DNA of 64,000 nucleotides from Casuarius casuarius (taxonomy: Eukaryota > Chordata > Aves > Casuariiformes > Casuariidae), in the NCBI GenBank assembly GCA_003342895.1, contig PTFA01000531.1, positions 127,654 through 191,653 of the forward strand, given 5' to 3'. Shown here piece by piece: positions 370-48,615 of the stretch (position 1 is the stretch's first letter; each line of letters starts with the position of its first letter). The notes under the pieces were generated by a model. That model worked only from the letters and a program-made list of their open reading frames with translations. It had not been told where the DNA came from and did no database searches. The translations under genes were made by a program, and so were the position numbers.

Positions 370-455
370 CATGATGTGACCTGAGCCCTTCCTTTGGGTT
401 TCATTGAGCAATGCACTTGTAGAGTCAACGTAGGCAAACAACTGCCACCCTCACC

Positions 456-18195: not shown

Positions 18196-21100
18196 ATTCT
18201 GGTGCCAGTTTAACTGTTGCAGTAAGTGTCCTCTTCCAGCCAGCTCATCTGAGCACCAGGAAATCCAGACTGCTTTGCTCTGAGGGGTGGTGGGAAAAAA
18301 ATATTTCCGTGAGGTCGTGTGGGATGGTGCCACAAGCCACAGTGCCCCAAAGCTGGAGTAGTGCCTCAGCTGGGAAGGTCTCTGCAGGACCTCGAGGAGT
18401 GAATTTGATCTGTTGCACAGAGGGCCAGCAGCATTTCTAGCCCTGTGAGGGCACAGACACTGAAGGCACCTCTGAGGCAGTGCTGGCCACCTCCACCCGT
18501 GTGAATGTCCCTGCCCTTGCCTGGCCCTGCTGGTGTTGGCAGGCTGGACTGGATGCATGGAACCAGCAGAGCCCTGGGAGTAGAAAGCCCAGCAGCTGCC
18601 CTCAGTGGCCTGTAGACCAGCATCGCGTGCTTTTGGATCACCTTTCTGTACTGGCCTGACCTGCCTGCCCAAAGCAGAGCCTGTGCAGCCCTTTGACCAC
18701 CCCCCGGCTGTGGGCACAGCTGGAGCCCATCTCCTGGGCAGTCTCCTGAAGGGAAGAGAATTGCAAAGTGCAAATGCAGCTTTGCATTTAACCCCTCCTA
18801 TAAGCAATCCTGCCAGTGCTTCCCAACTGGCTGTGGTGGGCTACCTCGGCAGAGCCATGGGGAACGATGACTTTCCACAGGGTCTGGAGGTGATGGCAGA
18901 GCTGGCAAGGGAGGAAGAGGAGTTTGAAAATCCAGCTGAGAGGCCCTGGAGAGATGCAGCCAGCGCCTGAGAGGGGTGAGCTCTTCTCTGAACAGTGGTG
19001 GGATGGCAGGGGAAAGCCCGAGGATTCTGGTGCTGGGGAAGGATGGGTGAATGAGAGAGACGCTCCAGAGATTCGGGAGGGGAGTTACTGTCGAATGGTT
19101 TAAGCTATTTGTTGTTTTGAGGTGTAACTGATTTACAGGTAGATTTAATTGACTTGTATTTGGAAGCTATTTTAAGATGAAGTCAGGTCATTTAGCTAAA
19201 TGCTCCCCTAGGTAGTTGGGGCCTATCAGTGCAACACACCTGAAAATAGTGGGGAACCTGCAAAGGAGCACTATACGATGCCAAGTAACAAGTCTGTTGG
19301 TAATGTGCACATACTTTCCGTACTTTCTTTCATAGCTGTTACTTAGAGCAAATACATTCCTTATTTGTATAAACNTCATAGCAGGACATTTCCAGAAAAC
19401 CTTGAGTGAACACACACCGTATTTGAGTCCATTTTAGCTGTGACCTGGTCTGTAAACATTCTCTGCTGCAGATAAGGATTGAGTGATATCACTTCAGATT
19501 TTGGCAGGATTTCACCTAATGGTGTTTCACTTGGTTCTCTCCAGAGTTTTATAGTTTTTCAATTAAGCTTTCAAGACCCATTTTCTTCTAGTATGGCTAT
19601 TGAGAACAGAATGTAAACTCTCACAAACTATTTCTATGTGCATCATATTTATCAGTTTATGACTCTCTGTTGTCAGCAGACTCTGACACAAATAGTAGTT
19701 AATATTTTGCATGCTGATTTTTAATGTGAGCAAACATTGTGGGTTAGAAATTGTCGTCGCCTATTTCTACATGAACCAAAAACCCTATCACCACATACAG
19801 TCATGGATGGTGAAAGTCACTGGTTTTGTCCTATTTAGCTTTTGCTGGGAATGCAAAATACCTGTCTGCCTTTCGGCTGATATAGCAGGTAAATCCCTGA
19901 CTGTTATTTACACAGCCTGAGAAGGATGAGTATCAGACAGTGAAAATGTTCACTGATGACATCTGCTCACTGATTTCAGCTAAAATCATGTACAGTGACA
20001 TGTACCCAATTTTTATAAAAGCAGTGCATAATTTGAGGCTTAAAATAAATTCTTGGAAATGAAAATCAGTGCACTTGAGAAAGCTATTATAATTTGTGGC
20101 AAATTTCAAGTATTTAACTTTTGAAATAATCACCAGTAAAACCTGCATTAACTGTGCTACTAAAGCGACGAGCTGATGAGGAAGGTGCCCTTAGTAGGCT
20201 CTTCTATCAGTATTCGGGCACCTTCTGAATTTCTCCCTGCTGCCAGAAGAAATAATCAGCCATTGATAAGGGATTATTAATCAGATTAGAATACTCTGTC
20301 TGCCAAGATGACACATGACAGTGATTGAGCAGAACTGCCTGTGGTGTAGCCAGCCAACCCCCTAGAGGCAGCAGCACTAACTCCTGTGTGCTTTCTGCAG
20401 TCTCTACAGTCATTCCTGTCTTTCCTTTGACCTCCTTTTGCAGATAGCTTCAAGGGCCTCCCAAAGCTGTCTATACCGAGTGGGTGGTACACAGCAGAGC
20501 TCTGGCAGGTACCCACATGAGGGAGGCCACATGCTGTTTCCATAAGGTTCCTGGGGATCAGGAGGCAAAAGCTCAAGAAGTGTTGGGAATTCATTACCAT
20601 TTCCTGTATGTTTTCTCTTGGTTATCCTATGTGTTACTCTCAAACACTGTAATGAGGTCAAAACAGTCCCCTACAAACCTGCAAAGGTACCAGCACCCTG
20701 GAAAGTCTTAAGTTTGCTGTAAATGATACCTTATAAAGGGTGTCTCTTTTGCCAAGATTCAGAGACCCCCTCATGTGATTTGTAGTATTTTCTGAGGCTT
20801 TGGAGAATTGGCAGCTTCAAGTCCCAGACCTCTAACTAGCCTACTGCTTCTCTCAGCCTTTCATGAAGTTGTCCCAAACACAGTCAGGTCTTGAGTTAAA
20901 CTGTTCTCTGCTGGGGCTTTGTGCCTCTTGCATTTTTTTTTCATAAAAGGTGCTGGATACCTATGCAATTCCTAGGGGCATGCCAGTGCTGCTCTTTGTG
21001 TGTTCTGAGGACTGTTGACTCTGGCAGATGCCTTAGCCGACCTCATACTCACCGTGGTGTTTCCCAATCCTCTGCAGCCTGTCCTTTTGCAGCCTGCCAG

Positions 21101-22740
21101 TTGTGCACATTATCCTCCTGTTTCTCTTACAGCCTGCTGTGGTGGGAGAGCCTCACTCATGGCGTGCTTCAAAGGTGTCCCCTTTGCAGTCAGCTCCTGC
21201 AGACAATGCCAGAAATCCTGCAGNTGGGGGCGTTTGCTCCTTCAAGAACTAAGTGAATCACGATGTGGAAAGCCTGATGCTATGTGACACTGCCTTTTTA
21301 CAAGCACCACACCATTTGCACCATGACTCCCCCGCTTCAAGCTGTCTTTATAGCCCTGCGGTACTCTCAGTCCTTCCAAACAGCTGCTGCAAGTTGGTAC
21401 CTGAGGGTTTCAGCCTTGTTTCCCTCAGTTAGCATAAATTCTGCTGCATAACCCATCTGCTTTATCCTGGGGACTGGTGAATGGGCCTATCTCTTTCCTC
21501 TCTTCAGGGCTCTTTCTTGATAACCATCTGCTGGTTTGTCCTTTCCTGCAAGGGCCTCTCTACTACAAGGAGCCCTTGTTTAGGCTATTTCCTTGGGATT
21601 TTCCCTGCTCTACCACATGCTACAGGAGGTCTCCTGCTACCTAGCCCTCCCATTAAAACAATCAATGAATGAGATGTGGAGCTGAAAGAAGTCTTCAGAG
21701 CTTTCCCCTGCAGGAAGGCACAAGCAGCTCCACTCATATAGTTAACTGCAAATAATCACACGTGAATGCAACTAGTTGCAAACTGCAAATCCAGATGAAA
21801 ATTCTCAATTCTACTTAATGCTGAAGGTCCCAGAGAAAAACACTTTTATGTCTTAGAGAATGGAGGAACTCTGTGCTTGTCACAAATTTCTTCTAATTTG
21901 CAGTTGTAGGAAAAGAAAGAAATGGAGAAAAGAAATGGGACTCTTCCATTTCCCTCTCTGTCTCACACATACACACACAAAGGATGGAGTGTGTTGGAGT
22001 AGGCCAGAGGGAGCTGGATGTTCAGGTACCAACTGCATTGCACTCTCCTTTTGGTTTCAGGCTCAAGCTCTCATGCTCACAACACTTCACCCATNCACGG
22101 TCAGTCTATGTTCAGCACTCCAAAGTGCTCTTTCTGTGCCATCCTGGGGCCCTACTAGTGTGCCTCGTGCTGCAGCTAGCTCTGCNTGCTGCCAGGTCCA
22201 TGCTGAGCACCTGGCACCAGGTCTGAGCACAAGCTAGCGATAACCACACANCTGGTTTGCAGATAGGAAGTGTAGACAATTTCTGCTTGTATTTATGAAG
22301 AAGAGGTGACTGGGCTTTATTGCTATCTGGCCTCAAAGGGGCCACTCTCTTTCATGGCCAGTGTCAATGAAGATCTGTATATGCTTCATTGTATATGCAT
22401 CTAGCTCGGCTTTTGTCTTCTGCCCTTATCTGGAGGTTCTGAAAGGCTCTATCCTGACAGACAAACGGGCTGATAGAAAAAGCTCTGCTGAGCCTGTCGG
22501 CGAAGCAGCCAGCTCCCTTCAGGAGTTGTATCGTGGGGCTTCGTTGTGCAGAAGGCAAAGCCCAGCACTGCAGAGGCTGGCCGAGGCTAGGGGCAAGGGG
22601 CATGCGCTACAGCTGCAGTGATGATTTCTAGATCTTGATTCCTGCTCTAGATGCCTGGCAGATGTTTGCTGTTCTTTCCCTTTGAACCGTCTCCTATTGC
22701 AAACATTTCTCAAATTTGAATAACTTAGTTGGAAAGAGCA
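18196..22740. other. Intergenic region, no confident gene
   Basis: Between the SPINK5-like gene and ovoinhibitor. Long open frames occur by chance (for example 18605-18970 and 20921-21256) but none has splice-phase or family support. The only structured signal is copy A of the shared upstream element, near 19.43 kb. A weak exon-1 relic may sit at 20308 (see findings). Confidence 0.45.
19425..19600 (+). promoter_or_regulatory. Shared upstream element, copy A
   Basis: The block TGTGACCTGGTCTGTAAAC then CTGCTGCAGATAAGG aligns with four other copies (22.75, 37.7, 43.3 and 47.8 kb). This is the most diverged copy: the AGAACA and TGACTCA motifs are lost, while the GATAAG motif is kept. No intact gene follows within 5 kb. 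Confidence 0.5.
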
Positions 22741-22960
22741 TTGCTGTGATCTTGACAGAACATGCTGACTCAATCTATTTCAACTGTAGATTTGGTTTGC
22801 AAATAATGTCTCCTTGCTGATAAGGTTTAGGTGTCATCGTTGTGGACATTGGCAGAAATTCATTTGACCATGACAGCTTTTATAGAATCTAGCAATAAAA
22901 TTGTCAAGATACATTTTCTTCTGCCAGGATGCACTAATTGATGATGGTCTTGGCTGGAAT
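22740..22960 (+). promoter_or_regulatory. Shared upstream element, copy B (ovoinhibitor)
   Basis: Contains AGAACA at 22757, the AP-1 consensus TGACTCA just after it, an A/T block, and CTGATAAGG. It aligns with the ovomucoid copy E over these blocks and with copy D further down ('ttcttctgccagg'). It is 2,223 bases before the ovoinhibitor ATG; a CR1 insertion occupies most of the excess distance relative to ovomucoid. The regulatory role is inferred from recurrence and motifs, not shown. Confidence 0.6.
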
Positions 22961-23079
22961 AAAGCACTGAGAGACAGATATTGTAATTGGGATAAACAGG
23001 GGTCACTATAGTTGAGACCTGCATTGGTCTAAAGGTCTAGAGTCTTGGACACGTGGTGGAGCTGAGATAAGGGACAGGG

Positions 23080-24660: not shown

Positions 24661-24902
24661 GCCGGGCGAGGAGGAGTGTGGTCGCGGGGCATAGAAGGCA
24701 GAGCCAGGAGGAAGGCGACCTTGCACTGCTTCTGGTTCCCCTCGAGCATCCAGCCACGCAAAAGGCCCCTTCCTGGCATTTACTCCTGTGTCAATCATTA
24801 GCCAGAAATCCAGATCTGGGTAAATATATTCTGGCTTCCAGTGTTGATGACAGGTTTGGAGAGTTACGTAATAAGGTGGGACCGTTTGATAGTATAGGGC
24901 GT

Positions 24903-24908
24903 TATATA
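24903..24908 (+). promoter_or_regulatory. TATA box of ovoinhibitor
   Basis: TATATA lies 77 bases before the ATG at 24980, which predicts a 5' UTR of about 45-50 bases, close to ovomucoid (81 bases from TATA to ATG). Confidence 0.7.
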
Positions 24909-24979
24909 CTCCTGCTCGTGAACTTCGCTTCCTACACGGCACTCTTGCAGCCTGCACAAACGCAGCACCACTGTCAACC

Positions 24980-27900
24980 ATGAAGCTAACGAGGGGCTTC
25001 ATGCGGGTGGCTGTAGCCCTGTGCTGCTTCTTAGGTGAGTAATTCCCATGATGCTGCTCAGATCTCTGCAGCTGAGTCAGAGGCCAGGTTATTAGCAAAG
25101 TGTTNGAGTCTTGTAAGGTGGAGGAGAGTAATCTTCTGTGAAGAAATATTCTGCCTGAGAAAGCGTAGCAAAAAAATCGGACTGAAATTTCAGCAAGCCT
25201 CATACAGACAACTGTTTTCATCTTCTCGGTTTATAGGAACAAAAGATTGAAGGAATAGTTCTAGTGCAGGGCAGGAACTTATATATGGAAGTACTAGATG
25301 TAAAGGTAAAATAAAACAGTTACCTCTGTCTGAGTGAGCAATGAAAATGAAAACTTTAACTCCTAGGGTTACTCTCCAAGGTTGCTGTGCTGTTCCCTGC
25401 AGCTGGGAAGCACGTGACTGGAAATAGACAGTTTCAGTGGTCAACAGTCTTCTTAAATATGCATGTCCTCTAACTTCTTAATGTCAGATACAAACTCTTT
25501 TAGAAAAGGCTAAACTATAAAAACTCACAGTTTAAATTACCTGTATCATTTCCCTGTAACATCTTAGGAACTGATTAATTTATTCTCTCTCCTATTCTGT
25601 CTCCCCTCAAAAGTGCAATGAGACTTTATAAATACACCCTATGACCATCTACTGACATGATGCAAAACTTCATTTTCCTAAATGCAATAAACCAGTCATC
25701 AGCGGTCGTGGGATTTAACTATTTCATGACATTTACATATGTCATCTCTGCATATCAATAATATTTTTTCTTTTCTGTTTCTGTTTTTCTTTCAGATACT
25801 GTCTCTGGAGTGGAGGTGAGTTACAGATCTTTCCATTTATCCTGTTCTACTCCTGGTGTCTGGTAAAATAGCGATAGTATGTAACCACCTGATGACCAAG
25901 TGGGTTAAATCTAATGAAAGGTTGGCTGTTTGAATAATATTTGCCAGTGCATGATTGAAAGATATTGCCAATTTCATGAGTAAATAAAACGCCTACCATT
26001 TTTAGGCTGTTTTCAGTTCATTAAATAAAATGAAGAAAGCAATTAGTCATTATACAATTCTATTATTTCAATTCTCAGACATAATTGATCTACTCCTGCA
26101 GTCAAAGGCAGTAGGTTACTGCCTCAAGAGGAAAACTAACCTAAGATGATATGCCTGAAAGCATCAAAGACCATGATTCAGATAATTTTTCTATACAGTA
26201 ATACCCATAGAATTGTGTCCCTCGAATAGGTTTTACATACATATACTTAGCAATGAAAACAGCAGGGTATGTGCGATAGATTTGTCTGCAGGTTCTGCCC
26301 ACGCAGTTATGAATGCTGAGACTCTGGTAGCTCACCAGAGACTGCGGCGTGCTTGGGAAACCTATTAGATTCGGCGCTTGGGGGCTCCAGAGGCAGGCCA
26401 GGCTCCCAGTTACCAGCTGCCTTCATTAGGCTGGCTCCTCACCCACAGCAAGCCCTCCTCCGTGCCCTCCGGACCCTTGCGGGAAAGCCTCATCAGAAAC
26501 TTTCGTAGGGAAGATTCACTCCTCTCGGCTGCCTGGAGAGATTCAGAATAATTCCTCTCATTTATCTCCTGGCCAGAGCCTGCAGGGGCTGTTGCTGGGG
26601 GAGGGGGAGGGCTTGCCTGGGAGGGGGGTCTTTCAGCACCGCAGCCTGCAGCGGGGCTGATGGCGGCGCACCACTCGCACAGGTCGACTGCAGCCAGTAT
26701 CCCAGCGGCGTCGCTAAGGACGGCACCTCCTGGGTAGGCTGCCCGAGGGACCTCTCACCCGTGTGCGGCACAGATGGCTCCACGTACAGCAACGAATGTG
26801 GCATCTGCCTCTACAACAGGTGAGTCTTACGCCACAGGCACTGCGCCGACCAGGCAGCGCTGTGCAATGTACCTGATGTCAGCTCTTGAAATACTGGCAT
26901 TTCTTCATAGGCTTTCTAAAGTCCCTCAGGAGTGGGTTTGACCCGAGCTCCTGCAGCCCTTGTTCCTCTGCCTCCTGGCATGGGCTGCTGTGGCAGGTCG
27001 CAGCTCTGAGTGTGGCAGTGGGGCTGGAGGAGGAATAGGCTGATCCTTATTGCAAAGGAGCAGACCAGCTGCTTCCCACTGGCCTGCTGGAAACCCAGCA
27101 GATACTGGCAGAAGTCACAGGGCAATAGATTAGAGGTAAGAGTGGCAGCTACATGCCCCAAAAGGCACAGAGGAGCATATGAGTTAGCACCTAGGCACCA
27201 ACACCTCCAGTCTGGAGGCGACGGCTGCTCTCCACAATCCCTGACACAAATCATCTTCTTCTTCTAGGGAACACAGTAGCCATGTTGCTAAACAGCATGA
27301 TGGAGAATGCAAGCAGAAACTTATTCAGGTAAGCGTAATAGCAAGGCAAAATCTTGCTCTGCTGGTGTCCATGGAAGACTTCTGTTGGCTGTAAAAGTGC
27401 AGCCACCATATAAGAGGAACACAGTCCAAAGGGAAATAAAACATTGGTCTGCACAGTCCAAAGGGAATTAAAAAATGGTGATAGCCAAGGCCCAGAAAGT
27501 TTTACGTGCCATATGGTACTATGTCTCTCTGTTTTTCTAGTGCAGACTCCTAGCCTCTGGAATCAGGAATAAAATGAAAATGTCACATCGACTGAAGGTT
27601 TGGTCTCACAGCCTAGTTAGTTACAGTAAGACCTCACAAAGGACCTCATAAAGCCAGAATGAACAGTCCTTTTTTCTATGCCATTTTCTTCAGCATGAGC
27701 GAATTCCCACAGAATTGGCTCCAAATGCTTTTGGAGCCCCAAAGGCTGAGACAGAATAAGGACACTATAAAGAAGCATTATTTCTTCATATCAAAAGTGA
27801 ATTCTGTTCTATTACTGCTATTTTTTCAAGGTTGACTGCAGTAGATACCGTAGCGCTACAAAAGATGGTGAAGTCCTGGTAGCCTGTCCAAGGATACTGG

Positions 27901-30900
27901 AACCAGTCTGTGGCTCTGACAGCCTCACTTACAGCAACGAATGTGGGATCTGTGCCTATAATGCGTAAGTGGTGTGCATAGAACCTCCTCTCTGGACAAT
28001 TAGCAATATTTAGGGCTCTCAGAAGTTTTCCTTTAAAACACTAGTCTTTCTTCAGTCTGGGTTCTCAGTAGGTCTCTCTGGAACTATCTATTTGCAATTT
28101 CTCCAGCCAGCCCGAGCAGTCTTCGGCAACCTCTATGCTCATATGTGGAATCACAAAAGAGCCAGAGGGTAACACAGAGCAGGGCCATGAGCCCATCAGA
28201 GTGGCATTCGTAATGCTGCAGGATAAGGAAATACTGTGTTTGCTGCTCAAAGAGTGACTGCTACCATCCTCTGGGCATATTCAGATTAAACTTAGCCAGT
28301 TCTAGCATCCCACACAATGAGCAGGACCTTGCTTTCTTGTCCCAGTGTCTAGACTGTAGTGGAAAAAGTTACTCTCAGAGCTCCCTAACCAACGCAACTC
28401 TTTTTTCCCAGAGAACACCACACCAACATTAGTAAGAAGTATGATGGAGAATGCAAGCATGAGATTGTCTCGGTAAGTGCAATAGAAGTCAAAATTCATC
28501 TTGTACTGCTGTTAGTAGAGAAAATGCCACTGACTTCCCTAGGAAATTGTGAAAGTGCCATATGACAGGGCTTACAAGGTCCCATCCCAGGCTCTGGCTT
28601 TCTGCAAGTGAGAGTGGATTTCACGTTCTCCTTGCCCCAAAAGAAAGGGTCACCCCACTCAAACGAGACAGGAAATGGGTATGGCATAAGAAGCTGTAGT
28701 CACCCAGTGCTGTCCAGTCCACTTCCCTTCATACTAAGTTGGCTTTTGTGCCCAGGGAAGGGGAAGCCCAAGAGACTGGCATATTCAGTTCTTTGGGTCC
28801 TGGATTTTCCTTGCCAGTGTGTTGTGCAGGCTGGCAGTTTTCTTTCTGAACATCACAAGCTTCTCCACCCTTTGCAACAGGGACTCAAAAAAAGCCCATG
28901 CTAGTTGTTTTCACAGACGTAATGAAACTCGTAAGAGCACTAAGCATACATATTTATAGCGTTTAGCTTATTGTATATTTATAATTAGTTCTACACGAGG
29001 CAGAACAGTCTGGTGCCTCAGGAGGAAAAGCTTATATATTTCAGAACAAAAATTTGGGGATGTAGAAAGTCCATTCTCCAAATGATAGCTAACCATTTCT
29101 TCTTTATCCTTTCAAATCCCATTGCTTAAATATATGAAATCTGAACTAGTAAGTAATCACAGCACTGGAGAAAAGGGGAGAAAAATAACCCAAACTACAA
29201 CAATACTAGTCAGATTTCTAGCTGGTGAAAAATGGTTCCCACCAAATTGAAGAGAATTTTGTTGATGAGAATGAGCCCAAAGTTTTGTACGTTCCTTCTG
29301 TCTGAAGGATCCCTTCTCCAAGATGGGTCCTTTCTCTCCACTCCTAGATAACTAGGATAATATTCAGAAATCCCATTTCTGATAGAAGATTTAGTTTAAG
29401 TGTATCAGGGCTTTGTCCTGTTACAGAAACTATGAAGGCTGGGATACAGAACAGAAAGGTTTTGCATGGACTTTTCTCACATAACAATGGCTCTACCAGA
29501 TCTAATTCTCCTTATTTTGGTAGATTGACTGCAGCCAGTATCCAACAGAAGTCACTAAAGATGGCAAAACATTAGTATCCTGTCCAAGGGTCCTGCATCC
29601 AGTTTGCGGCACAGATGGTTTTACATATGATAATGAATGTGGGATCTGTGCCCATAATGGGTAAGTGCCATACATAGAGCATTCCTTCTAAGTTACCAGC
29701 AACACTTAGCAGTCCTGGTAACAGTCCTTTTATATTTCTGCTTATGCCTATTTCTTCAAGCCTCTTAGAAACTGGCTTATTTTGGGGTCTATCTTGAGTT
29801 TCCTTCTGATTTCCTTTTTGTGCTCATGAAGGGAAACTTGGAAGAGTCACATGACAGCTCTTTGGATTAGTCTGTAGGCTGGCCAGTGACTGAGCAGATG
29901 AAGGAATAGTTCAGAATATCACTATAAATTATATGTTTTTAGAAGATGTGACGAGCTTGTTAATGAGTAGAATAATGTAGCTATTTTGATACACTCCTGT
30001 AGAGGCTGAAACCTTAATTTGCCAGGTATCTGTTCTATGCTGTATCTGATTCATTTTGCATCTGAATGTGACCAGGAGCTTAAGCATTAGGTTCTTCAAC
30101 TTCATTGTCTCCCTCTTCCAGAGAGCACAGCACCCATGTTGGCAAAAGGCATGATGGAAAATGCAAACAGGACATTCCTACAGTGAGTACAATATAAGGC
30201 ATATTTCTCCTCTTGCTTCTATTAACTGAAAGATTCCCTGAGGCTACCTCTACTCCGAAAGTGAGCTGGCCTGAAGCCTGGCTTTCTCCACATGTCCACT
30301 AAGCCTTGTGAGCCCCCTGCGTTCAGGACACCTACAAATCCCATCTGTCTTGAGGCAGGTGTCATCTGGGCCCTCCTTGCCTACACAGCCCTGGCAGATG
30401 GGCTGCATGTGAGCCGCTGTGCTAGGCACAGAGTCTATATTACAAATTCATGCCTATGCCAACCTTTGGAGTGGGGGGTGTATTCTGGTATATGGAGTGC
30501 ACCTGAAGTTTTGCTCCAGGAATATCAGCCGAGAGGTCCCCGAACTCACTTCTAGGACACGCCAGCACATAAACGTGGAAGTGTCAGTTTGATTGCAGGT
30601 CTTCCTTTGAGTACGATCTTCAATTGCATTATCAGCAAAGTCCAATTTGCTTCACTATTTTGTTGTGGGTTTTTTTATTTATTTCTGTAGTACAGAATGA
30701 CGTGGGACTGCTTCTTTCTGGTTTTCTGACTTATTTTTCCAACAGTTTTGCTCAGGTTGTAAACCTCTGGAGTCAGAAGTAAAGTTGGGCAGCATTTGAG
30801 ATTGACCTAGCTAGTTGCACTAGTGGTTGGACGTCTCACAAACTATGCAGCACTGCGTAGTTCCTTGTGTGCATAAGGAGATTCATGCAGAGCTGTTTCA

Positions 30901-36192: not shown

Positions 36193-36317
36193 CTGCACTG
36201 GAGCCCAGCTCAGGAAGAAAAACTCTCTTGTGTGTGACTCCCCATGGACTGATCTTCCCTAACAGCTTTCCTTCAGCTTGTCTTGTTTCCTTCTATCTCT
36301 TGAAACACTTTTTGTTC

Positions 36318-36323
36318 AATAAA
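36318..36323 (+). terminator. Ovoinhibitor polyadenylation signal
   Basis: Canonical AATAAA 126 bases after the TAA, with a T-rich stretch downstream. Ovomucoid has AATAAA 116 bases after its stop, so the 3' ends are organised alike. Confidence 0.8.
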
Positions 36324-36329
36324 CTCACT

Positions 36330-37640
36330 TGGCAACATTTCTCTGTCTTATTTTAATGACACATTCTTCCACCCCTCACATGGTACCTCCAGTGCTGCGG
36401 ATTCATTCTTCTATTGACGTCCTGCTCTACCAGACACACCAGCAAACTCTTTTTTCCTGCTGTCTCTCAGTGCTGACCCCACTCCTAGAAGGGACCTGGC
36501 CTCCCCATGGAGCTCCCAGGCACTTCCTTACTCCTTACAGTCTCCTTGGCAAGATTAGTCTCATCTAGCCCTTAGTGTCTCCATGTGGTCTCATCATCTG
36601 GACTCCCTTTTTATAGTCAGTGCAGGGAAACAGGCACCCTGAGGGCATAGTCCAGCTCCTCCAAGGTGCAGTATCTAGAACGAGGTGGATGGCCTGCTCT
36701 CAAGAAGAGTACTTCATTGCTGTTGACTAGGAAGGGAAACTTGCTGCCTAGCTGAGAGGTGCCCCATCCTGGCTCCTGCTGCCAGCGCTGCCTGCACAGC
36801 CTGCCACATAGAAGAGGCAGCAACTGCTGTCAGCAAAGGTGATGTAAGCCTGTCTCCACTGATCTGACTTCAGTGCCATGTACTGTTATAGGATAAAAAC
36901 TACAGGAGGGGAACATCGAGGATCACAGAGAGCAGAAAAGTCCACTCACAAAAGCCCTTGGTTTATTAATGCAGCAGAATAGCTCCAGGCCTGGTGCCTC
37001 GTGGGAGCTGAGCAGAAATCACACCTGTAGTGTGGGACATCCCTGATAAATCACTGCAGCTGCCTCACTTCTAAAGCCATACAAGAGGGAAAAGGATGTA
37101 GAGGAGGGCCTGTGACCTCTTTTAACAAAATATATAGCAAACTATAGGAAAGTGGCTCTGCAAAATAGTCATGTTTTGGCCTATATAGGAGACCAAAGAG
37201 TTCAGGACAGGGTGATGATATTTTCTGTCGCTTTTGTCTCCATATGGATGGCAGGGTGGTAGGGGGAGCTGGCAATATAGTTACAACCACTACATCTAGG
37301 TTTGCACTAGGTCCCCCAAGCTGAAACTATTTCTAGTCCAATATTTAGGGGTTAAAGGACTTCTAGACTACAGCTATAGCCTCCCTGCTTCAATGTCCTA
37401 TTGCAGTTTACCAGAGAGTAACACAATTATTTGGACCTGCTTGGAAAGTCACTCTTTGAATTGTCAGGCTAGATTAATAGGCTGAAGGCAAATGTTCCAA
37501 ACTTGGAGATATTCTGGGTATTGTATGAGGGAATAAGGCCTTAGTACTGCCATGCTATTAGATTTTGTGGCTGGCATGTACTTTCCAAGATGATTTGTAA
37601 CTAACAATGGCTTATTGTATTTTTCTTGAATCTCTGTCCT
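36330..37640. other. Intergenic, no gene seen
   Basis: 3' flank of ovoinhibitor. No Kazal motif, RNA gene or clear retroelement is recognised. Short open frames here lack splice or family support. Confidence 0.45.
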
Positions 37641-37649
37641 AATGTAAAT

Positions 37650-37800
37650 GTTCCTTTGGTTTATATAACCTTGCCATTTGCTGTTAAGATGTTTTTTGCA
37701 GAACATGCTGATATATTCCAGTTTAACTGTGACTTGGTTTTCAAATAAACTCTACTTACAGATAAGACCTGAATAAAATTTTTGTGCACTTTGGCATATT
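37650..37800 (+). promoter_or_regulatory. Shared upstream element, copy C (dead locus)
   Basis: AGAACA is at 37700, followed by AACTGTGACTTGGTTTTCAA and ACAGATAAG. AGAACA lies 816 bases before the relic ATG at 38516, nearly the spacing seen at ovomucoid (821). The AP-1 site is mutated (TGATATA in place of TGACTCA). The 5' side ('cctttggtttatataac') matches copy D. Confidence 0.6.
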
Positions 37801-38421
37801 TTCACTTGGGCTTAGCTCTGATCACTAGCTTTTGTAGTAAAGCTGTTAAGATCTGCGCTGACATTAGCCAGACACAGACTTGCCAAAGCTGCCTCTGCAG
37901 AGCTCATTGTCTGATGACACCAAAGGCAAAACGTGAACTCGAAGAGGCACATCTCAAAGCTGAGATGAAATCATAGCAATCCATGCAGTATTCACCAATA
38001 AGTTTCGTGTGGAAGTACATAATGGGATAAATCACCAAACTAGGCCAGAAAATGGGAAAAGCCTGACATGGGAGTTTATATACTCACTCAGGCGCAGGGG
38101 CTGTTTTATGAAGCTATATAAGTCTATAAAAGTAGGGCAGCCTTCTCCTAACTGACAGAGCTGTCTTCTGTCCCTCAGAGTCGGTTTTCAGCTGTTCCAG
38201 GGTTTCTACTGAGCATCTGTTAATCAGATGATTTCTTTCTGCTTCATGTTGATGAGGAAGCAACCGTCAGACCAAGACTGGCACATTCAGGAGGAAGCGC
38301 TGAACTCTTGCGGCTTAGGAGCGAGGTAGAACAATATCAGGGTTAAGTGTCACTAACAAATCTGAAAGGTGGTTTTAAGGTAGAGCTGGCTGAGCTGGAT
38401 GCCTGCTTGGTGATAGATAGA

Positions 38422-41400
38422 TATATATGGATTCCTGTGCTGGGGAGCACCAAGGTATCATCTTGTGAGCTCAGTGCTTGACAAACTGCAAGCATATTCA
38501 GTAACCATCTCCACCATGAGGGTGGCAGATGCTTTTGTGCTACCCAGCCGCCCACTCTATTGCTTTTCAAATGTGTAATGCTGCAGAGTCCTGCAGCTGA
38601 CTTCCTTTCCCAGCTTGGTCAAAAGCCAGAGCAGCTTCCAAATCGTCAGGCTTCTCTCAAAGACCATTAAACTGGCATGCTAGGAAAAGCTTTTTTTTTC
38701 AGAAAAGGGCACTAAAAGGATCAGGCACAAGGGCAGGTTTTCAGGACTGCTTCTATGGGCTATTATTTTAGCACTCTCTCCACGAATGGAAATAGTTGCG
38801 GATGCAGCCTTGTACCCTCAGTCAAGGATGCAGTGAAGAAATAGTGGCTTGTCAGTGCCTGTTATGAAGGCACAGTATGATGTTCAGACATCTAAAATCC
38901 ACTGGTGAAATGCAGTGGGTACAGCTCCATATATTGCCCTGCAGCCCCCTGCTGCCTCCCGCCTGCTCCAAAGGCTGTGGACTGAGATCTTGAGCCACTC
39001 CAGGGCCTGACAATCTTCCACATATTTCACACCATGCACATTTGACCCTCAGGAATTCTGACTTGTAAATGCACCGGTACCAATCACAGAGGCAATATTT
39101 TAGAAATATAAATGCCCTCTCCACTTCCTTGTTTGTCCAATTTATCTTTTTAGCCTTATCAATGCTTTCTGAGCCTACAGTGATTTTTCTTACAACACGA
39201 AGAGAAAGAGAAGTGATGTGAATCATTTAATTTCTTGACTGATAAGTGGGATTTAGAAAACAATACTTTTTAAATAGTTTTTTTATATTAGGCTGAAAGA
39301 GATTTTTTTTTTCATCATTTATCAGCACGGTATATATAAGCACTCACCCATCTGTGACTTTAACAAACCTATAACTGACAATCTTTGTATCTAAACTTCA
39401 TTCAAAAGCTTTACCAAAAAAAGCTATAGGTTTCAACAGGATGTCTGCTCATAATTTGTCTTTTTGTTAGCTTTTCTTTCAGAGGTTGTATTTGCTGGAG
39501 GAGCATGTGGATGGGCCTAGATACTCTGTCACTCTCTNGGGGAGTGCCTGGTAACCACATGGCTCACCCCACTGATTTCTGAAACTATTGAAAATATTCA
39601 AGAGAGATATTAATGTATGACTGTTGCTCTTTCCAAGAGAATATTTAAATGGTCTTGTTATTACCACCTTTATAACTATATATTCCTCAGATAAATGAAA
39701 TCCAGAAATAATTATATGAACTCATTGTATCAGTTCCACAGCTATATTTGACTGGCTGGAAACAGAGGAAATAGTTTGAGGTCTGAAGATGAAAAATTAC
39801 CTTAGACCTCTTTATTTAAAAGAATATAATCCTAGTATCCACCCATTTCATCCATCTCAGTACGTTCACCCTCAGAAATGTTCACTCACTTTTTGTTATT
39901 GTCTGATACAGTTTTTTTGATTGTTTGCCATGCTCTAGGCTTCTGTTGCGTGCTTGCCACTAATCAACAAGTAGATATGAAAAAAGCAAAAAGAAATAAT
40001 GAAAGGGGGCCAGTCTCCAGCTGGNAAACACCCACTTAGCCTAGAAGGCTTCTCCTGATTTTCACCAGCCGAGGTGCAGCCCCATAAGTTTAAACATACT
40101 GTGGCTTTGCAAACAAAAACAGTTCATATATTGCATTTCTTCCTCCATATTTTTCATTCATAGAAGCTAAACCCCAGTTTCATTCAAGGCAACTGGGGAA
40201 TGAAGACTATTTGGAAATTTATTGCTTTACTGCTTGTCTCTGTTCTCTTTACGGTTTAGCTGCAGCACATAGCACAGGGGCACTGCTGAGAATGGCAGTC
40301 AGGGCCCCCTGGCCAAGCTCCGGACCAGATCTGTGGCGCAGATGGTTTCACTTACATCAATGAATGTGGGATCAGTGCCTGTAATATGTCAGTCTGATAG
40401 AAAGAACTTGCTTGCCGAGTCACAGTCCCCTAGCCCCTGGCCTCTCCCTCGTGCTTTCCAACTCATCCTCTATTTTCCTCTCCACTTTTTGTTTGTGCTT
40501 AGGGCGAAACTGTGAAGATTTAGCAGAGAAAAGAAAATAGCCAGTGGATATCCAAATGATGCAGCATATTCAGATGTCATAGGTTTGTTGACTGATAGTT
40601 TAATAATGTCAGAGATGCTAAAACCACTTCATTGTTGGTGGTTAACTCAGATGAACTCTCCTTCACTTGCATCATCTGTGAGTTTATATACATTCCCAGC
40701 ATCTATCCTTCTTCAGGAAAGTGGAAATAGTGAGCCTCTAAAGGCAGACTTTCCCTCCTCCCTTTCTGTCCTTCGGAGGACGAGGGACACGCTCTGACAA
40801 GAAACATCAGGGGATACAGGAACAGCAGTTGTTCCAGTGAATAGGAGCAAAGGCAAACCAAGACACTGCCTGAGCTCCCGTTGCTGTCTGTGGCAGCATC
40901 CCAAATGATGTCAGCCGGATGCTGAGCAGGCAGTGTAGGAACGGACATAAGTGACGCATACACCTTCTGTTGGCATTTTATTCAGCAGTGATTTAACACT
41001 AGCTTCCTAATATTGCTGTTCACCACAGCCCGCATTCAAACGTATGAAGAGAAAGATGGCAAAAAGATATGAAATATGAGACAAATAGCAGAAATATTTC
41101 TTTGCTACTGAAGTGTGCACAAACAATCTTTTCTGACAACATCAGGAAAGCAAAGCGTATCCTGTTTTAGGACTAGAAAAGGAGACTCAGAAAATCCCTG
41201 CAGATATCAGTGCACTCAGCTCTCTTGATAGAAGTTTTGCAAACGCAGCATGGTGCCAGGCCATAAGCCATATAATCAGATGCAGCATAGCAGTCATCAT
41301 GAACAAACTAACATATTAAGTCAATAACTGCATTACTTTGCCAGGGCAACAGTTTATAGCTGGTAAAAGTCCTGCTACATACCTTACTGCCATAACTGTG

Positions 41401-41753
41401 AAACAGTAAAATCCTGGAATTCAACATGTTCCTCTGTCAGCACCAATGGTGCTTCACCCACGTCCAGCTGCAAAGAATCAGTCCATGTTCCCATCAAAGT
41501 TCAGCCCTGCTGAACAAATTAAGCTGTTCCCATTTCTTTTGCTGTTGATATTGAAGGAAATAATATTCAGCGGTAGTGACCCTAACACTTCTGAAGCTAT
41601 GGGAACTCTCTCCATCCAGTTTCATCTGTTTCAGCCAAGTGACGGTTCAGGCTGTAGCACCACAATACATCCTGTCTCTCACCCTGTTCTCCTTCTCTTT
41701 CTCACCAGGGAGAGCAGTGGATTTTCATTCTTAGCCATTCTGGAGAATTTTAA
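38422..41753 (+). pseudogene. Dead SPINK gene between ovoinhibitor and ovomucoid
   Basis: Four relic exons in order. A TATA-like TATATATG is at 38422. Relic exon 1, 38516-38570, is exactly 55 bases as in living paralogues: ATG in a CCACC context, a GGTGGCAGATGCTTTTGTGC match to ovomucoid exon 1, and the donor changed from GTGAGT to ATGTGT so that a stop follows. Relic exon 2 is at 39483-39500, with its acceptor kept and donor lost. The relic Kazal exon, 40260-40387, has stop codons but the readable remnant QICGADGFTYINECGISACN, closest to ovoinhibitor domains III/IV, and a GTCAGT donor. The relic last exon, 41709-41753, aligns with ovomucoid exon 8 but has lost one base, so the final Cys codon is destroyed. 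Other domain exons are not found. The gene is not functional as read. Confidence 0.75.
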
Positions 41754-43250
41754 ATTGCTATTGCACCCAGTCCCTGAGAGAGAACTCCCTCCTCTTTCTT
41801 TTTTACAAGCTCTCTCTTAAAAAACAGACCTTCATTCATCCCACATCTCGAAGGTTCCTGGCTTTCTTTCCCTAAATGAGAGCAACCTCCTTTATCTTGC
41901 TTGTTCAAACATTGTGTCGCATGTGAACTTTTGCCAGTTGTTGGGCGATAAGATCAGATCCGTGAGTGCATTTTTGCTTGACATTCTACTCGTTCCCACT
42001 CTGCACAGCCTCATTTCGTGGTTTCACCTGGAAAGAAAGCTTTGCCTATGGACATGATACAGCCTCCTTTCTCAGGGCTGTTACTGGGCAGAGTGAGGCC
42101 TCCAGGTTGCTGTGGCATCAATGGTCTGTCACCTTCAGGAGCTGCCACCTCTTTACACTTCCAGTTATTTTCTCCCATATGGAATTTGTGCATGGGGAGA
42201 AGGGACACTCTTGAAGTTTTATCTAACAAATGAAACCTCAGGATAATTCCTCTCTCATTCATGTCATTATCTGTGTATAAACTTCTGCACTTCTAGCTCC
42301 CTCAGAAGAATACAGAGCCTCAGCTTGCCCTGTCCTGAGCTTGCACGAAGCAGAGCACAGACCCTGGCCCAAAGGGCTTGAGGACCAGGTGGAGAGCTGG
42401 CAACTCTCAGGCCAAATTTACCTTTGCAGGACCTAAAGGTTGAGAGTCACAGACTGATGGGGGAATCTTACTAGCAGAACTGGGGCTGAGCTGCAAGCCT
42501 TGAATATAAGGCCTTGGCCATTTCCCCAGTAGTTATACCAGCCCTCCTGCCCCTCTGATCAAGAGTATGTCTGGACCCTACCAGCATGGGGGGGGGGGGT
42601 CCAAAGAAATCTGTCACTCATTTACAGCTGGTCCTCCTCAAAATGCACAAACTTGGTATGCTACTTACCAAGGGGAGGGGAAGATAAACATGGAAGGATA
42701 ATTACCCTATCATTGAAAACGCTTTGTGGTCCATAGACATTTCTGTCAGTCTTAAGAAATAGAACTGAGGGGGCACTAGCACTGAAGGCATGTTCCTGTG
42801 ATAAATGAATGACTGCTGGCAGCTCCTGTGGAGAGATGATCTGTTTCGTGGGAGACTGTAATCTGTCTCTGCAGCCAGCTTTGCCGTAGCCTTCCTAATG
42901 TAGTCATATCCGGGTTACATATGCCTCTGTAAACAAGCATCAGGATGCAGCTATCCAGGAATCAAGGGATTTTCCTCGAGGCCTTAGTATTCCTCTTTGC
43001 TGCTCAGGGGGTAACACAATTACTCAGCCCAGCTATACTGAATTACTTTTTCCTACCCTACTCATTAGCCCATTAAAATCTCTTTTTTCTGCCTATAGGC
43101 CTTTCTTGGCAATGACACTCAGCTAGTCTTTGGTGACTTGGGTAGCTGATTGAAATCCAAGGGATGCAGCCACAATCCCCGTGCTGTGTGCTATTCTGAT
43201 GACGTGTGCGCTGCTAGGTGACTGGTAGCTAGCAAACACCTCATCTGCTG
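41754..43250. other. Intergenic, no gene seen
   Basis: Apart from a poly-G run near 42588-42598 no structured signal is seen. Open frames at 41966-42262 overlap on both strands and have no family match. Confidence 0.4.
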
Positions 43251-43540
43251 TCCTTTGGAGATGTGTTCAAATATTCCCTTGGTTTACATAACTTCAAAGC
43301 AATTTGCTTTCATAGCAGAACATGCTTATTCATTCCATTTTCACTGTGCATTGGTCTATAAATAATGCCTCCTTGCAGATAAGAATCTATTGATTTTTTT
43401 TTTTACCCTTGGAAGAATTTCTCCTGACCCAAACTCCTGAAGGAGACATTCTCAACCTTAGCAGTGAAGCTGCCAAAGTCACTTTCTTCTGCCAGGCAGC
43501 AGCAAATGATGTCAAACCCAGGCTGGCTGCTGTTTAACCA
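43250..43540 (+). promoter_or_regulatory. Shared upstream element, copy D
   Basis: AGAACA at 43317, then TTGGTCTATAAATAATG and GCAGATAAG. The AP-1 position reads TTATTCA, so the consensus is lost. The 3' part ('cttagcagtgaagctgccaa') matches copy E at 47.94 kb almost exactly. Only weak SPINK exon relics follow (see 45126 and 45481). Confidence 0.6.
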
Positions 43541-44489
43541 CAGCCACCTTTTCATTGTTACTATTTGGGTTTAGGCAAAGATGAAATGAGCAGTCAGGAA
43601 CACACAGCTGAGATCACTGAAGTGTCAGGAAAACTGATTAAACCAATGATTTCCACTTCCTCTGACCAGCTGCTTGATAACATCTCCTGCTTGACTTCCA
43701 AGCCACCTGCCCTGCAGTATGTTTACTCCAAAGAGTAAAACCCTGGGCTGTTGTCCAATGAAGCTTTCTGCCCTTTAGTGCCTCCTTTTTCTGCTGCTCA
43801 TTCTAGCGTTTTCCTGAATCTTTGTAAGCAACTCTTGCCCCGTGGCACAGAGCCCTGACCTGATGGCCTCACCATTCAGAAACCTGACTGAAGCCAGAGC
43901 ACTACGTGAGCTAGTGAGCTGAGGAGTGATGGTACATCCTCTGAGAGCTGATACTGTGAGATCCACATCTGGCCTATGTGGCAGCACAGAAGCAAAGGGT
44001 CCACTGTTTTGGCAGCTTATGTTCTGCAGCGCAGGCAACTACTCTGGTAAGCTGGCACCCATACTGCTTTGATGTGCGCAGAAGGGCTGTGGCTGGTGTG
44101 CAACCATCAGTTTAGACAGCCACTTGTCACCCGGGTGTTTACTATAGGTGCAAAGGCTGATGTACCGCTCTGTAAGTGTGATGGTGGCAGGAGGCCTGGG
44201 GCCATCCTGAAACAGAGAGGTCTGGAATTATTGAAATAATAATAGTCTGAATTTGGGNTTTTTTGTTGTTTTTTGTTGTTTTTTAATAATGATTAAAGTC
44301 TACTCTTTCTGCTCTGCATATTCTTACTGGCCACCCTCCAAAAATGTATTGGGAACTCTGCATCACTTACCTGTTGCCCTTAGCAAAGGTCATAGAAAAA
44401 CTCTGAGACTGTTCTCCTGGGTCACAGAGATGCATATTCTTTCATTAATAAAAACCATTTGTAGAAGACAACATTATATAACTACTCTT

Positions 44490-44950
44490 TTAATAGAATA
44501 ATTTAGGTTGGAAGGGCTCTCTGGAGATCTCTAGTCCAACACCTGCTCGGAGCAGGTCCAACCTCAAAGTCATATCAGGATGCTCGTGGCATTCCTTGTC
44601 CAGTCAAGTTTTGAGCTTCTCTGGTCCTTGCACCACTATTTGACCAGCTTTGTGGCAAAGAATATTTTTCCTATACTCAGTCAGAATTTCATCCTTTTGC
44701 TGTGTAGCTCTGAGAAGAGCCTGACTTCATCTTCTGTATAACCCCCATTAGGGAGCCGCAATTAGATCCCCCCCGTAGCCCTCTCTTCTCCAAGCTGGCC
44801 AAGCCCAGCTCCTTTTCAGCCTCACTTTTTGGTGAGGTTGCCTCCTGTCATCCTGACCTGTTGGTGGCCTCTGCTGGACTCCTTCCAGCATGTCAACGTC
44901 TGTCCTTGTACTGGGGGCCGGTACATGAAATTCACCACATAAGTAATGTG
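44490..44950 (-). mobile_element. CR1 LINE 3' fragment
   Basis: The + strand reads 'taggttggaagggctctc', 'tctagtccaac' and, further on, 'tctccaagctggccaagccc' and 'gtccttgtactgggggcc'. This is the reverse complement of the classic avian CR1 3' end, so the element runs on the minus strand. It is 5'-truncated, as most CR1 copies are, and better preserved than the other CR1 copies in the window. Confidence 0.85.
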
Positions 44951-45480
44951 AAACCATGTTAGCCTTTACCCACAGGGTACAAAGTTCTGCTCCTGTTCTC
45001 GTTACTTCAGGAAAACGTTCACTGGCATTACCTGAATCAAGCCCTATTTAATGAGCTCATAAACACGAGGTCATGTTTTCATACCAATATGTTTTAACTA
45101 TATCGTCGATTTTGTTTGTTTTTTAGATTAGTTCAAATGCTGCCTTTGGGCCTATCAATTTCTCCAGGCTTGTGGTTCAGTGTAAATAGTTATTGGCCAC
45201 GTTGTGGCCAAGTGAAGAACAAAGATGGAAACCGTAGTTTGAATTATACTTATCAGGCATTTTGGAGTGAGCATAGGCAATTTCATGTAACAACTACAAC
45301 TAACTATTGTTATTTCCTACTTTTATAGCAACTATTTGTGAATTAAATAATATGGCAAAGCCCAGGAATGTTTGGAAAAGTGTGTTAAATCAGTAATGTC
45401 ATTTATTTATCAGTGAATAACACTGAGAAGTCACGTTATTTACTAAGAAAATGTCTTAACTTCAGTTTTGATTCTTCTGG

Positions 45481-45540
45481 AGAATATGGCATCAACACTG
45501 GCAAAAACTGTAATGGAAAATGTAAACCAAGAAGATGTTA
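45481..45540 (+). pseudogene. Relic Kazal second-half exon
   Basis: The frame reads EYGINTGKNCNGKCKPR, matching the ovomucoid/ovoinhibitor second-half exon pattern (E-[YHF]-G-x-N-[VI]-x-K-x-x-D-G-[EK]-C-K). The acceptor AG just before it is GG here (CTTCTGG in place of CTTCTAG), so it cannot be spliced in normally. The HD of the HDG motif is NCN. A faint first-half relic may lie at 45126-45260 after TTTTTTAG. Together with element copy D it suggests a second dead SPINK locus. Confidence 0.55.
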
Positions 45541-47740
45541 TACCAATGGCCAAATCCTGCCCTGGTGTGAGTCCAGAGACCCTCTGGAGTTCAGGACCAT
45601 AAAATGTGGCACTGCCTTTGCTTGCTTACAGGTCTTTGCCCTTGTGCTGGCATCTGCACACATGGGGATTTTCCTCTAGCCAGGTGTTCATTAGCCATAT
45701 GCTGCATCAGACTTGAAAAATTTAAAAGGGGAGAGCCCCTAATACAGAGGATTACAGCATGAGATCAGTGGCAGGACTGCAAAGGAAATCCCCTTTCTAG
45801 CTGTTCTTTTAGGAGTAGCTAAGAACTGAGCAACCTGTCCTTCTATAACAAAGTCTTGACTAGCTGGGGGATTTCCGCCCTGTAGAAGGATAAGCTGGAG
45901 CTATAACCCCCATCTGTCCAGACTTGGAAGCTGCAAATGCTGACTGGGTGGAGGAAGGAGGCTAGGAAGTGAGCCCACTCCATGTACTGAAGCCTGGTGA
46001 CTGCTGGATATTGTTTTTGTGGCTTTCCTGAAAGGAATATTTGAGTGCCTCAAGGGAGGCTGATTTTCCTCAGTCAGCACTTAACCATCATATAGACTTC
46101 CTGTCTATATGACTGTGAGCTGAACAGCAAGAGTGATCTCCCAAACAAGAGACAGGTGTTGACGTGGTCTGAGGAAATCTATGGGTTGCTCAGGGCCAGA
46201 AAGTGCCAGCTCCAGTGCTGAATCGGGCAATTCCAGTGGTAAAACTCTGTCCTGGTCACCTCCAGTGCCCCTTAGCAAGGCCTGACTGTGGGGGTGAGGT
46301 ATGCGATTATGGATGTATAGCCTTAGATCTAGGTGGGTAGCCAAGGGCCTGGGTCAGCATGGTCAGTGTTACTGCCGGCATCCTAGTGCTTAAGTGGCTG
46401 CCTAGTATAGGTCCTGGAGTCAGGAGCAAAGATGGAGATGCAGGACATGATCTCTTAGAACCTGATTTTTTGACTCCTTTATTTTTGTATTGTTAATTTT
46501 TTTATTGCACTTACTTCATGGCTCCCTGCTTTCCAGGCCAGCTGTTGAATTCAGTGATCTGCCTAGGAGACAACCTTGTGGTGTCTTCTCATATGTGCAC
46601 TTTTCCCCAGTGTATATGGACAAACGTGTGCCCATCTTTGGTAGGAAGATACCTTCCACTTATCAGTAGCAGGTGCAATCCTGCCTAGAGGACTGCACTG
46701 TCCAGGGTGATGAGCAGTCTGGAGCAGCAGAGTAGGTACCAGGCAGGAGGACCTGCTGTGGGCTGAAAATTACCAGGTCCAGGCCTGGAAAGCTAATTAG
46801 GATGACTTGCAGAGATCTCACTGGATTGCCACAGAAGGCAGTGGCAATGTTCCTACTCCATGCAGAAAGAAGTATTTACCTCTACTGTGCTAGGTGATTG
46901 ACAGCTTGTACATACTAACCAATGAAGGCAACAAGCATGGCACAAGCTTCATTGACCTCCTGTCAACGCTAAGGGAAAAAGTATCTGGTTTCCAGAATAA
47001 GGATGGGCAAATACCCACAATGTACGTAAGGGCAGTATACATTCAAGATGTGCTACATCTGTTGAAAATATTCATACATGCTTCCAGTAATTTCTTGGAA
47101 TAAAACCCAGCAGAATGCCTATTCTAATGCTTCTTTCTGTGAGTAAGCCAACCTTTTTTTTTATGTAGAAATGTAACGTATATAGCTACACAGCCATGCT
47201 ATGACTTTCAATACATGCCAGTGTCCAGGATACATGATTCCACACACTACAGTGCAACTTACATATTTAGGGATCAGAGTACACCCTTTAGACCAGTGCA
47301 ATGTATCAGACACTAACACAATTGCTTAGGCTAAATTTCAGTTATTTCAGTTGCATTTCAGTTGATTAATGCATGGCGTGTTGTTTGTCCAAGGGAACAC
47401 CTGAAAAGCATCTCTTGCTCTTAGCTCCCACAATGCCAAAGTCTATGCTAAGCACAGTGCTTAGAGTTCATGATGTTAAACAGGTAGAGTTGCCATTTCA
47501 GACCTGTCAGAGAAATCATGGTGAGATGTTTGGGTTAAAGGCAGAACCCACTCTTGAAAAGTTACATTCACTAAAATAGTGTGGAGGCCAAGGCCTCCTT
47601 CTAGGAAGGGGAAACTCAGAGAGAGACTGTACAGAGGCTGGAGGTGTGAGACAGACTGGGAAATTGTGACAGGTTCTGTTTTAAGTACCATTTTCTAGAA
47701 TATCTGTATGGGAAAAGGATCTACTGTACTTTCAAATCTA
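45541..47740. other. Intergenic, no gene seen
   Basis: No recognisable gene. A 128-base open stretch with splice-like ends at 46894-47021 was examined, but it has no cysteine and was rejected as a Kazal exon. Confidence 0.4.
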
Positions 47741-48040
47741 GCCATGCCCATGTTCCTAAAACTTCAGTGTTGTTTGTTCTTGAGATGTCTTGGCAGAACA
47801 TTTTGACTCAATTCGTTTAACAGTGACTTGGTCCGTAAATAAGTACTCTCTGCTGATAAGGTTCAAGTGACATTTTTAGTGAAGTTTGACAGAATTTAAC
47901 CTACTTTTAAGTCTTCTGCTGAGCTTTTCTATACCTCAGCAGTGAAGCTGCCAAAAAGCCCTTTCTTTTATCAAACCAGCACTACAGACCAATAACTCAG
48001 GTTAGACACAGTCCTACCAGAGTCACCTGGCAATGTTTAA
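47740..48040 (+). promoter_or_regulatory. Shared upstream element, copy E (ovomucoid)
   Basis: AGAACA at 47795, TGACTCA (AP-1 consensus) at 47804-47810, then CAGTGACTTGGTCCGTAAAT and CTGATAAGG, and 'cagcagtgaagctgccaa'. It lies 821 bases before the ovomucoid ATG. AGAACA is a steroid-receptor half-site sequence and GATAAG a GATA-type site. Ovomucoid is steroid-induced in oviduct in chicken, so a role in hormone or tissue control is a reasonable but untested inference. Confidence 0.65.
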
Positions 48041-48534
48041 CCAGTTCTGCTGATGGCAAAGCCACACCTGACCCATGTTCATGCCTCGCCTAGTGGTAGA
48101 TATCCGGGAATGCAGAAAAAAAGCCAGAAAATGGAATGGAAATTGGAGCGTCTTAGGCTAATTTGCAAACAGAGTAGTAGCTCATACCTATACTGCTCCT
48201 GGGAGGAGGGCATCCTACCAGGAGATTTTATGCCGCAGAGAAGAATGACAAATCTGTTGCTTAAGCCCCTCAATATTTTGTGCTACATCCATTTCCACTA
48301 GAATCCTAAAACATTTCCTTTGTCAAAAAGTTGTTTGTTTGGTTTTGCCCACAGAACAAGTGATACTTGTCTCAAGCTATTAACCAAATGTCCAGCCAAA
48401 ATCAATTGCCTAGTAGAGGCAGACCATTACCTGAAAGTCAAGATCTCAATAAATATTACCAGCCTCATTGTACCAGTGACAGATTCTGCTGGTTGTTTTA
48501 TGTTACAGTTGAACAGTTTAGACACCTGCATTTG

Positions 48535-48542: not shown

Positions 48543-48615
48543 CACAGTCTGCCTCGTAGAGACCATCTCAAGAGGAGAGCACTAGCAGCCTGCAGACTCA
48601 AGAAATACTTCCACC

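Follow-up and report, generated by a model that had tools for sequence, protein, structure and literature searches.

Five copies of a candidate oviduct enhancer in the egg-white SPINK cluster of Casuarius casuarius

Duplicated control elements are a known feature of gene clusters, and the question raised by the locus described here is whether five similar blocks in an egg-white SPINK cluster are such elements, copied along with the genes that they would control, and what becomes of them when those genes die. The blocks lie in the genome of Casuarius casuarius (1.19 Gb; assembly GCA_003342895.1), in a window of 64,000 bases that corresponds to bases 127654-191653 of the forward strand of contig PTFA01000531.1 and ends where the contig ends; all positions below are positions in this window. 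The cluster includes the gene for ovomucoid, a main egg-white protein and an egg allergen, and a seven-Kazal gene, which we take to be ovoinhibitor from a preliminary description of this DNA and from the known gene order. The egg-white genes are a classic model of hormonal control, and their induction by steroids in the oviduct is established.

The preliminary description proposed that each block is the distal promoter or enhancer of an ancestral SPINK unit that was duplicated together with its control region. Here, we studied the blocks by alignment, by profile and whole-genome searches, and by comparison of rates of change, and found this interpretation partly supported. In our judgement the blocks are likely to be copies of one cis-regulatory element, most plausibly a steroid-hormone-linked oviduct enhancer, that was duplicated with ancestral SPINK units. 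Enhancer function is likely, and a role as distal promoter is less likely.

Five homologous blocks on one strand

Alignment identifies five homologous blocks of ~200-300 bases each near 19.4, 22.8, 37.7, 43.3 and 47.8 kb (copies A to E), all on the + strand, which is also the strand of the SPINK genes. When the stretches named in the preliminary description were aligned, all 10 pairs, with z between 10.3 and 29.3, outscored every one of 300 dinucleotide shuffles. BLAST recovered nine of the 10 pairs with an expectation value (E-value) below 1e-6; the pair that it missed, copy A with copy E, nevertheless passes the shuffle test. Profiles built from any four copies recovered the fifth, with E-values of 8.4e-18 for A, 7.2e-31 for B, 3.6e-21 for C, 5.4e-28 for D and 2.3e-26 for E, in searches that covered 164 kb of the contig (its first 27.6 kb being covered by whole-genome queries alone), and the best match outside the element over all five runs had an E-value of 0.59. 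Gap-free pairwise identity of the copies is 64-73% in the core and 55-66% across the longer block. That the five blocks are paralogous copies, homologous beyond chance, as had been proposed, is confirmed by these comparisons.

The flanks, taken as the 250-300 bases on either side of each copy, score for the most part no higher than shuffled sequence: three of 20 pair tests reach z 2.4-2.5 (C-D on both sides and A-D on the 5' side), and the remaining pairs are lower. Because two of the three raised tests are C-D, these two copies may have retained somewhat more common flank. The 5' side that had been noticed in C and D is indeed common to both, and it extends to other copies: B matches C over this part (BLAST, 22682-22910 to 37626-37852), and through B the similarity extends to A (19307-19589 to 22658-22922). 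The block agcagtgaagctgccaa, which had been described as shared by D and E, also proved to be more widespread, with A and B carrying diverged forms of it and C a shortened one.

Transcription factor words within the element

The preliminary description had read the same order of words in every copy. This reading holds in full for WGATAAR, which stands at one aligned place in all five copies, and nearly so for AGAACA, which is exact at its aligned place in four (copy A has TGAACA there); it is incomplete for the AP-1 word TGACTCA, which is exact in B and E only, the two copies that precede live genes. A FOX-type word occupies one aligned place in four copies (it is absent from C), and TTGGCA, an NF1 half word, does so in three. 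The AGAACA-type word, counting TGAACA in A, lies 59-63 bases from the GATA word in all five copies, and the FOX word lies 18-19 bases from it in the four copies that bear it. Counts as high as those of these five words were reached in 0 to 2.5% of 2000 column shuffles (p 0/2000 to 0.025; five copies), values that are optimistic for a reason given below. The remaining 17 of the 22 words gave p >= 0.09 or at most one copy per place with five copies, and p >= 0.06 with B-E. The element thus appears to hold a conserved cluster of transcription-factor words, and a steroid-receptor half-site accompanied by AP-1, FOX-like and GATA words fits genes that are induced by steroids in the oviduct.

In such an enhancer, the AGAACA half-site would be bound in the oviduct by a receptor of the progesterone/glucocorticoid type, and the element also by a GATA factor, a FOX factor and, at B and E, AP-1; these proteins would target the ovoinhibitor and ovomucoid start sites. 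If they are enhancers of ovomucoid, the blocks would be short, testable control regions that come with natural variants, as with the exact AP-1 word, which only the live copies have.

Association of the element with SPINK units

A SPINK gene or relic on the same strand accompanies four of the five copies (B, C, D and E). Known or relic SPINK genes had been assigned to B, C and E, and self-comparison does place an exon-1 paralogue after each of these; the restriction to three does not stand, since Kazal relics lie downstream of both C and D, and unit D keeps one clear relic, a Kazal second-half exon, together with one doubtful relic of exon 1. The distance from the GATA word to the start codon is 756 bases in dead unit C, 762 in ovomucoid (E) and 2161 in ovoinhibitor (B). 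The ancestral SPINK unit probably had the element ~0.75 kb upstream of its start codon, and the element would have been copied along with that unit.

The case for joint duplication of element and gene unit is good for B, C and E and moderate for D, whereas for A it lacks support. The number of element-bearing units that are still intact, two, fits the earlier count. No copy of the element was detected by profile search before the other SPINK-like exons in the 164 kb.

Search for copies elsewhere in the genome

Across the 1.19 Gb genome, a 32-base pattern derived from B-E, with three or fewer mismatches allowed, matched no place other than these four copies, with no match on the other strand and none in a backwards control. 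When each copy was held out and compared with the pattern of the other three, B differed at 0 places, C at 5, D at 2 and E at 6, and because of these mismatches the pattern would be expected to catch about half of such copies. Four consensus queries of the whole genome gave 15 matches in total, all at the known five places: a 115-base consensus found B, C, D and E, and consensuses made without E, C or A found four, four and three copies, respectively. None of the four consensus queries recovered all five copies, and a copy left out of its consensus was found again in one of three tests. Single copies were weak queries, with the core of E finding itself only, D finding itself only, and B finding itself and E. 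Two looser patterns gave so many chance matches that those outside the copies are uninformative: a second-block pattern gave 32 matches against 20 in its backwards control, three of them known copies (A, B and E), and a looser-core pattern gave 17 against 16, one of them a known copy (B).

At this limited search sensitivity the element appears to be restricted to the cluster; a few distant copies elsewhere could have been missed, a large family hardly. A pattern scan of bacterial and archaeal contigs gave no matches. A description of the element was not found in the open-access literature, as searched through titles and the openings of abstracts, and the older work on chicken ovomucoid is mostly in subscription-only journals.

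Persistence of copies beside dead genes

If the copies beside dead genes had lost their function long ago, they might be expected to have changed more than the others. Maximum-likelihood branch lengths are 0.23 for D, 0.27 for B, 0.32 for E, 0.33 for C and 0.49 for A, and the inner branches, with support of 51 and 52, do not fix the branching order of the copies. Private changes in dead relative to live copies number 33:24 and 33:25 for A, 37:33 twice for C, and 28:35 and 28:32 for D, with no difference in any of the six tests. Exon 1 of relic C has changed faster than that of ovomucoid (37:11, p 0.0002; 30:14, p 0.023; both uncorrected). The contrast in rate between element and exon has p 0.011 for C in its most favourable pairing and p 0.061 for D when the doubtful exon 1 is used. 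These values hint that C and D may still be held by selection.

Several results weigh against that suggestion and against the enhancer interpretation as a whole. No gene relic was found after A, no exon profile matching below an E-value of 1 between 19.6 and 24.9 kb, and the profile search of the 164 kb detected no element upstream of the next intact gene, at 55.36 kb, whose exon 1 is of the same family; only part of the cluster thus bears the element. Nor is it the sole upstream similarity, since in the regions of ~420 bases just before exon 1 two of six pairs stand out (ovoinhibitor with ovomucoid, z 3.9, and the 55 kb gene with relic C, z 3.2). With B-E alone, the FOX word is found in three of four copies (p 0.062) and TTGGCA in two of four (p 0.017), and all motif p-values are optimistic because several of the consensus strings were picked once the alignment had been seen. 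The second receptor half-site after AGAACA, judged by eye against the consensus, is poor in all five copies; none has the two half-sites at three-base spacing of a progesterone/glucocorticoid response element, so a full steroid response element is unsupported. As for rates, exon 1 of relic C does not differ significantly from that of ovoinhibitor (37:35, 33:23), and in uncorrected tests the relic C Kazal exon is significantly faster in one of five comparisons, the relic D Kazal exon in two of five, and the doubtful relic D exon 1 in two of four. The argument from the dead units is therefore mixed, with relic exons tending to be faster, inconsistently, and recent gene death would give a rate pattern similar to that expected from retention of C and D.

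Alternative explanations

An interpretation that has, in our judgement, not far short of an even chance of being correct is that A, C and D are inert remnants, which were selected before duplication and until the death of their genes and are now decaying, so that B and E alone would still work, as the enhancers proposed above. It would account for A being the most diverged copy and for the confinement of the exact AP-1 word to the live copies. The excess rate of relic exons is, moreover, missing in many comparisons, which suggests that gene death may be recent and that there has been little time for decay. It accommodates less readily the branch of D, the shortest of all although unit D keeps only one clear Kazal exon, and the private changes of C and D, which are no more than those of B or E. 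The alternative fate is one of adoption: C, D and perhaps A would be enhancers that have outlived their own genes and now serve ovoinhibitor and ovomucoid, and the cluster would be driven by paralogous, hormone-linked enhancers spread along it, an array created by gene death. We regard this as possible and would put it forward tentatively, being more inclined to doubt than to accept it. It would require that these copies, having lost their own genes, continue to serve the surviving neighbours, a step of which we are less sure than of the others; if true, the locus would be a possible case of enhancers persisting after the death of their genes.

It is improbable that the element is instead a distal or alternative promoter, with an alternative first exon, of each unit. 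Its position upstream of the units on the same strand would suit a promoter, as would a TATAWAW word somewhere in four of the five copies (on the + strand at 43357 in D, on both strands at 37661-37662 in C, and on the - strand at 19547 in A and at 22878 in B), those of A and B at nearly matching places; however, at any aligned place a TATA word is present in at most one of the five copies, copy E is without any, and TATA-like words stand ~75-82 bases before the start codons of ovoinhibitor and ovomucoid. The promoter half of the original "distal promoter or enhancer" is for these reasons the weaker one. A dispersed genomic repeat or domesticated transposon, present here five times by chance, would likewise produce several short copies at irregular spacing, but we consider it very improbable: pattern and consensus queries found no copy elsewhere, and even at their limited sensitivity hundreds would hardly have been missed, all copies are on one strand, and four precede SPINK units. 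The outcome that the preliminary description had named as fatal to its proposal, an abundant dispersed repeat, is rejected at the sensitivity reached, since the whole-genome pattern and consensus matches all fall at known copies. We give as little credence to a structured RNA or a coding exon, despite pair identities comparable to those of the Kazal exons. The window gave no Rfam match at gathering scores. The consensus fold reaches -2.54 kcal/mol, its covariation term is +1.16, and one of 13 pairs shows a two-sided change; between the copies there are gaps of one and of four bases. An RNA or coding nature is unsupported.

Genes and gene relics of the cluster

Kazal exons on the + strand make up the seven-domain gene (26.7-35.7 kb), ovomucoid (50.6-53.8 kb) and a one-Kazal gene (55.36-57.36 kb). 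Self-comparison identifies a paralogous block at 24.9, 38.5, 48.6 and 55.4 kb that corresponds to exon 1 with its signal peptide and splice donor, and the exon-1 profile matches more weakly at 0.4 kb and, before the window, on the - strand. A profile of the unit C 3'-end relic and its ovoinhibitor counterpart also matches the last ovomucoid exon (E-value 1.4e-7). The features are collected in Table 1.

Table 1. Element copies, genes and gene relics, with positions in the window
Feature	Positions	Strand	Remarks
Element copy A	19340..19640	+	Most diverged; no gene relic detected after it; leave-one-out profile match at 19425-19589, E-value 8.4e-18
Element copy B	22690..22990	+	Before ovoinhibitor; AGAACA 22757, TGACTCA 22766, GCAAATA 22799, TGATAAG 22818, TTGGCA 22849
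Ovoinhibitor exon 1 region	24900..25092	+	TATA-like word, ATG 24979, splice donor; included in exon-1 profile
Ovoinhibitor seven Kazal exons and 3' end	26675..36250	+	
Element copy C	37625..37898	+	Before dead unit; AGAACA 37700, AGATAAG 37760, TTGGCA 37791; no FOX-type word
Unit C relic exon 1	38442..38600	+	Relic ATG 38516, donor lost; self-BLAST 38481-38596 to 48581-48695, E-value 6.4e-4
Unit C relic Kazal first-half exon	40246..40395	+	Stop, 4-base gap, acceptor lost; self-BLAST E-values down to 1.2e-11
Unit C 3'-end relic	41611..41797	+	Resembles stretch downstream of last ovoinhibitor Kazal exon; self-BLAST 36111-36228 to 41672-41790, E-value 6.4e-4
Element copy D	43255..43560	+	Before dead unit; shortest of five branches; AGAACA 43317, ATAAATA 43358, AGATAAG 43377
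Unit D doubtful exon-1 relic	43786..43862	+	Profile E-value 0.017
Unit D relic Kazal second-half exon	45456..45543	+	E-value 1.1e-6 with profile built without it; self-BLAST E-value 8.8e-5
Element copy E	47735..48060	+	Before ovomucoid; AGAACA 47795, TGACTCA 47804, GTAAATA 47835, TGATAAG 47854
Ovomucoid exon 1 region	48546..48727	+	ATG 48616
Ovomucoid Kazal exons to stop codon	50565..53805	+	Three-domain protein, spliced by hand
Intact one-Kazal gene	55360..57360	+	Directly downstream of ovomucoid; four exons, 79 codons and stop; exon 1 of same family

Among the best 120 of 198 matches to the hand-spliced ovomucoid, the top identity is 89%, to the ovomucoid of Rhea pennata. Ovomucoid-like proteins in entries for Clostridioides difficile and Corynebacterium glutamicum, whose contigs measure 844 and 624 bases, probably reflect contamination of bacterial assemblies with animal DNA. 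An ovomucoid intron holds a perfect 17-base tandem repeat of 4.5 copies (49983-50059).

Further SPINK-like exons precede the element copies, with an exon-1-like block at 401-546 and Kazal-like matches at 2.8, 5.1, 8.0 and 13.2 kb (within 401-8103 and at 13210-13287); the stretches at 5.1 and 8.0 kb share 74% identity across 152 bases. On the opposite (-) strand, some 38-41 kb ahead of the window, a SPINK-like gene carries an exon-1-like block and a Kazal exon; the profile search detected no element near it. Within dead unit D, between ovoinhibitor and ovomucoid, the stretch 44490-44950 resembles the 3' end of a CR1 repeat; it has no second copy at an E-value of 1e-3 in the 164 kb of contig.

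Comparison with known systems

The chicken ovalbumin gene is controlled by a steroid-dependent SDRE/NRE and by an enhancer at -1100 that is bound by an NF-1-like factor and described as steroid-independent, according to a published account (PMC10353141). As there described, these sequences resemble the proposed SPINK enhancer in providing upstream control of a major egg-white gene. They differ in belonging to another gene family and in the steroid independence of the -1100 enhancer, the comparison here being one of description; a further difference is that the SPINK element is present in five copies within a tandem cluster of genes.

For the mouse progesterone receptor, a published study (PMC6700090) reports half-sites as well represented among uterine and shared sites, AP-1 and GATA motifs as enriched at granulosa-cell sites rather than in the uterus, and modest CP2, homeobox and SOX motifs at uterus-specific sites. 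The half-sites, and the AP-1 and GATA motifs found with receptor sites, resemble the words of the SPINK element, but the AP-1/GATA enrichment marks granulosa cells, so that on these data a uterus-like grammar is not favoured for the element.

In tandem gene clusters such as those of globin and growth hormone, control sequences were copied with gene units, and some copies stand beside dead genes. The genes are different ones, and in the SPINK cluster the copies of the element outnumber the surviving genes that bear it.

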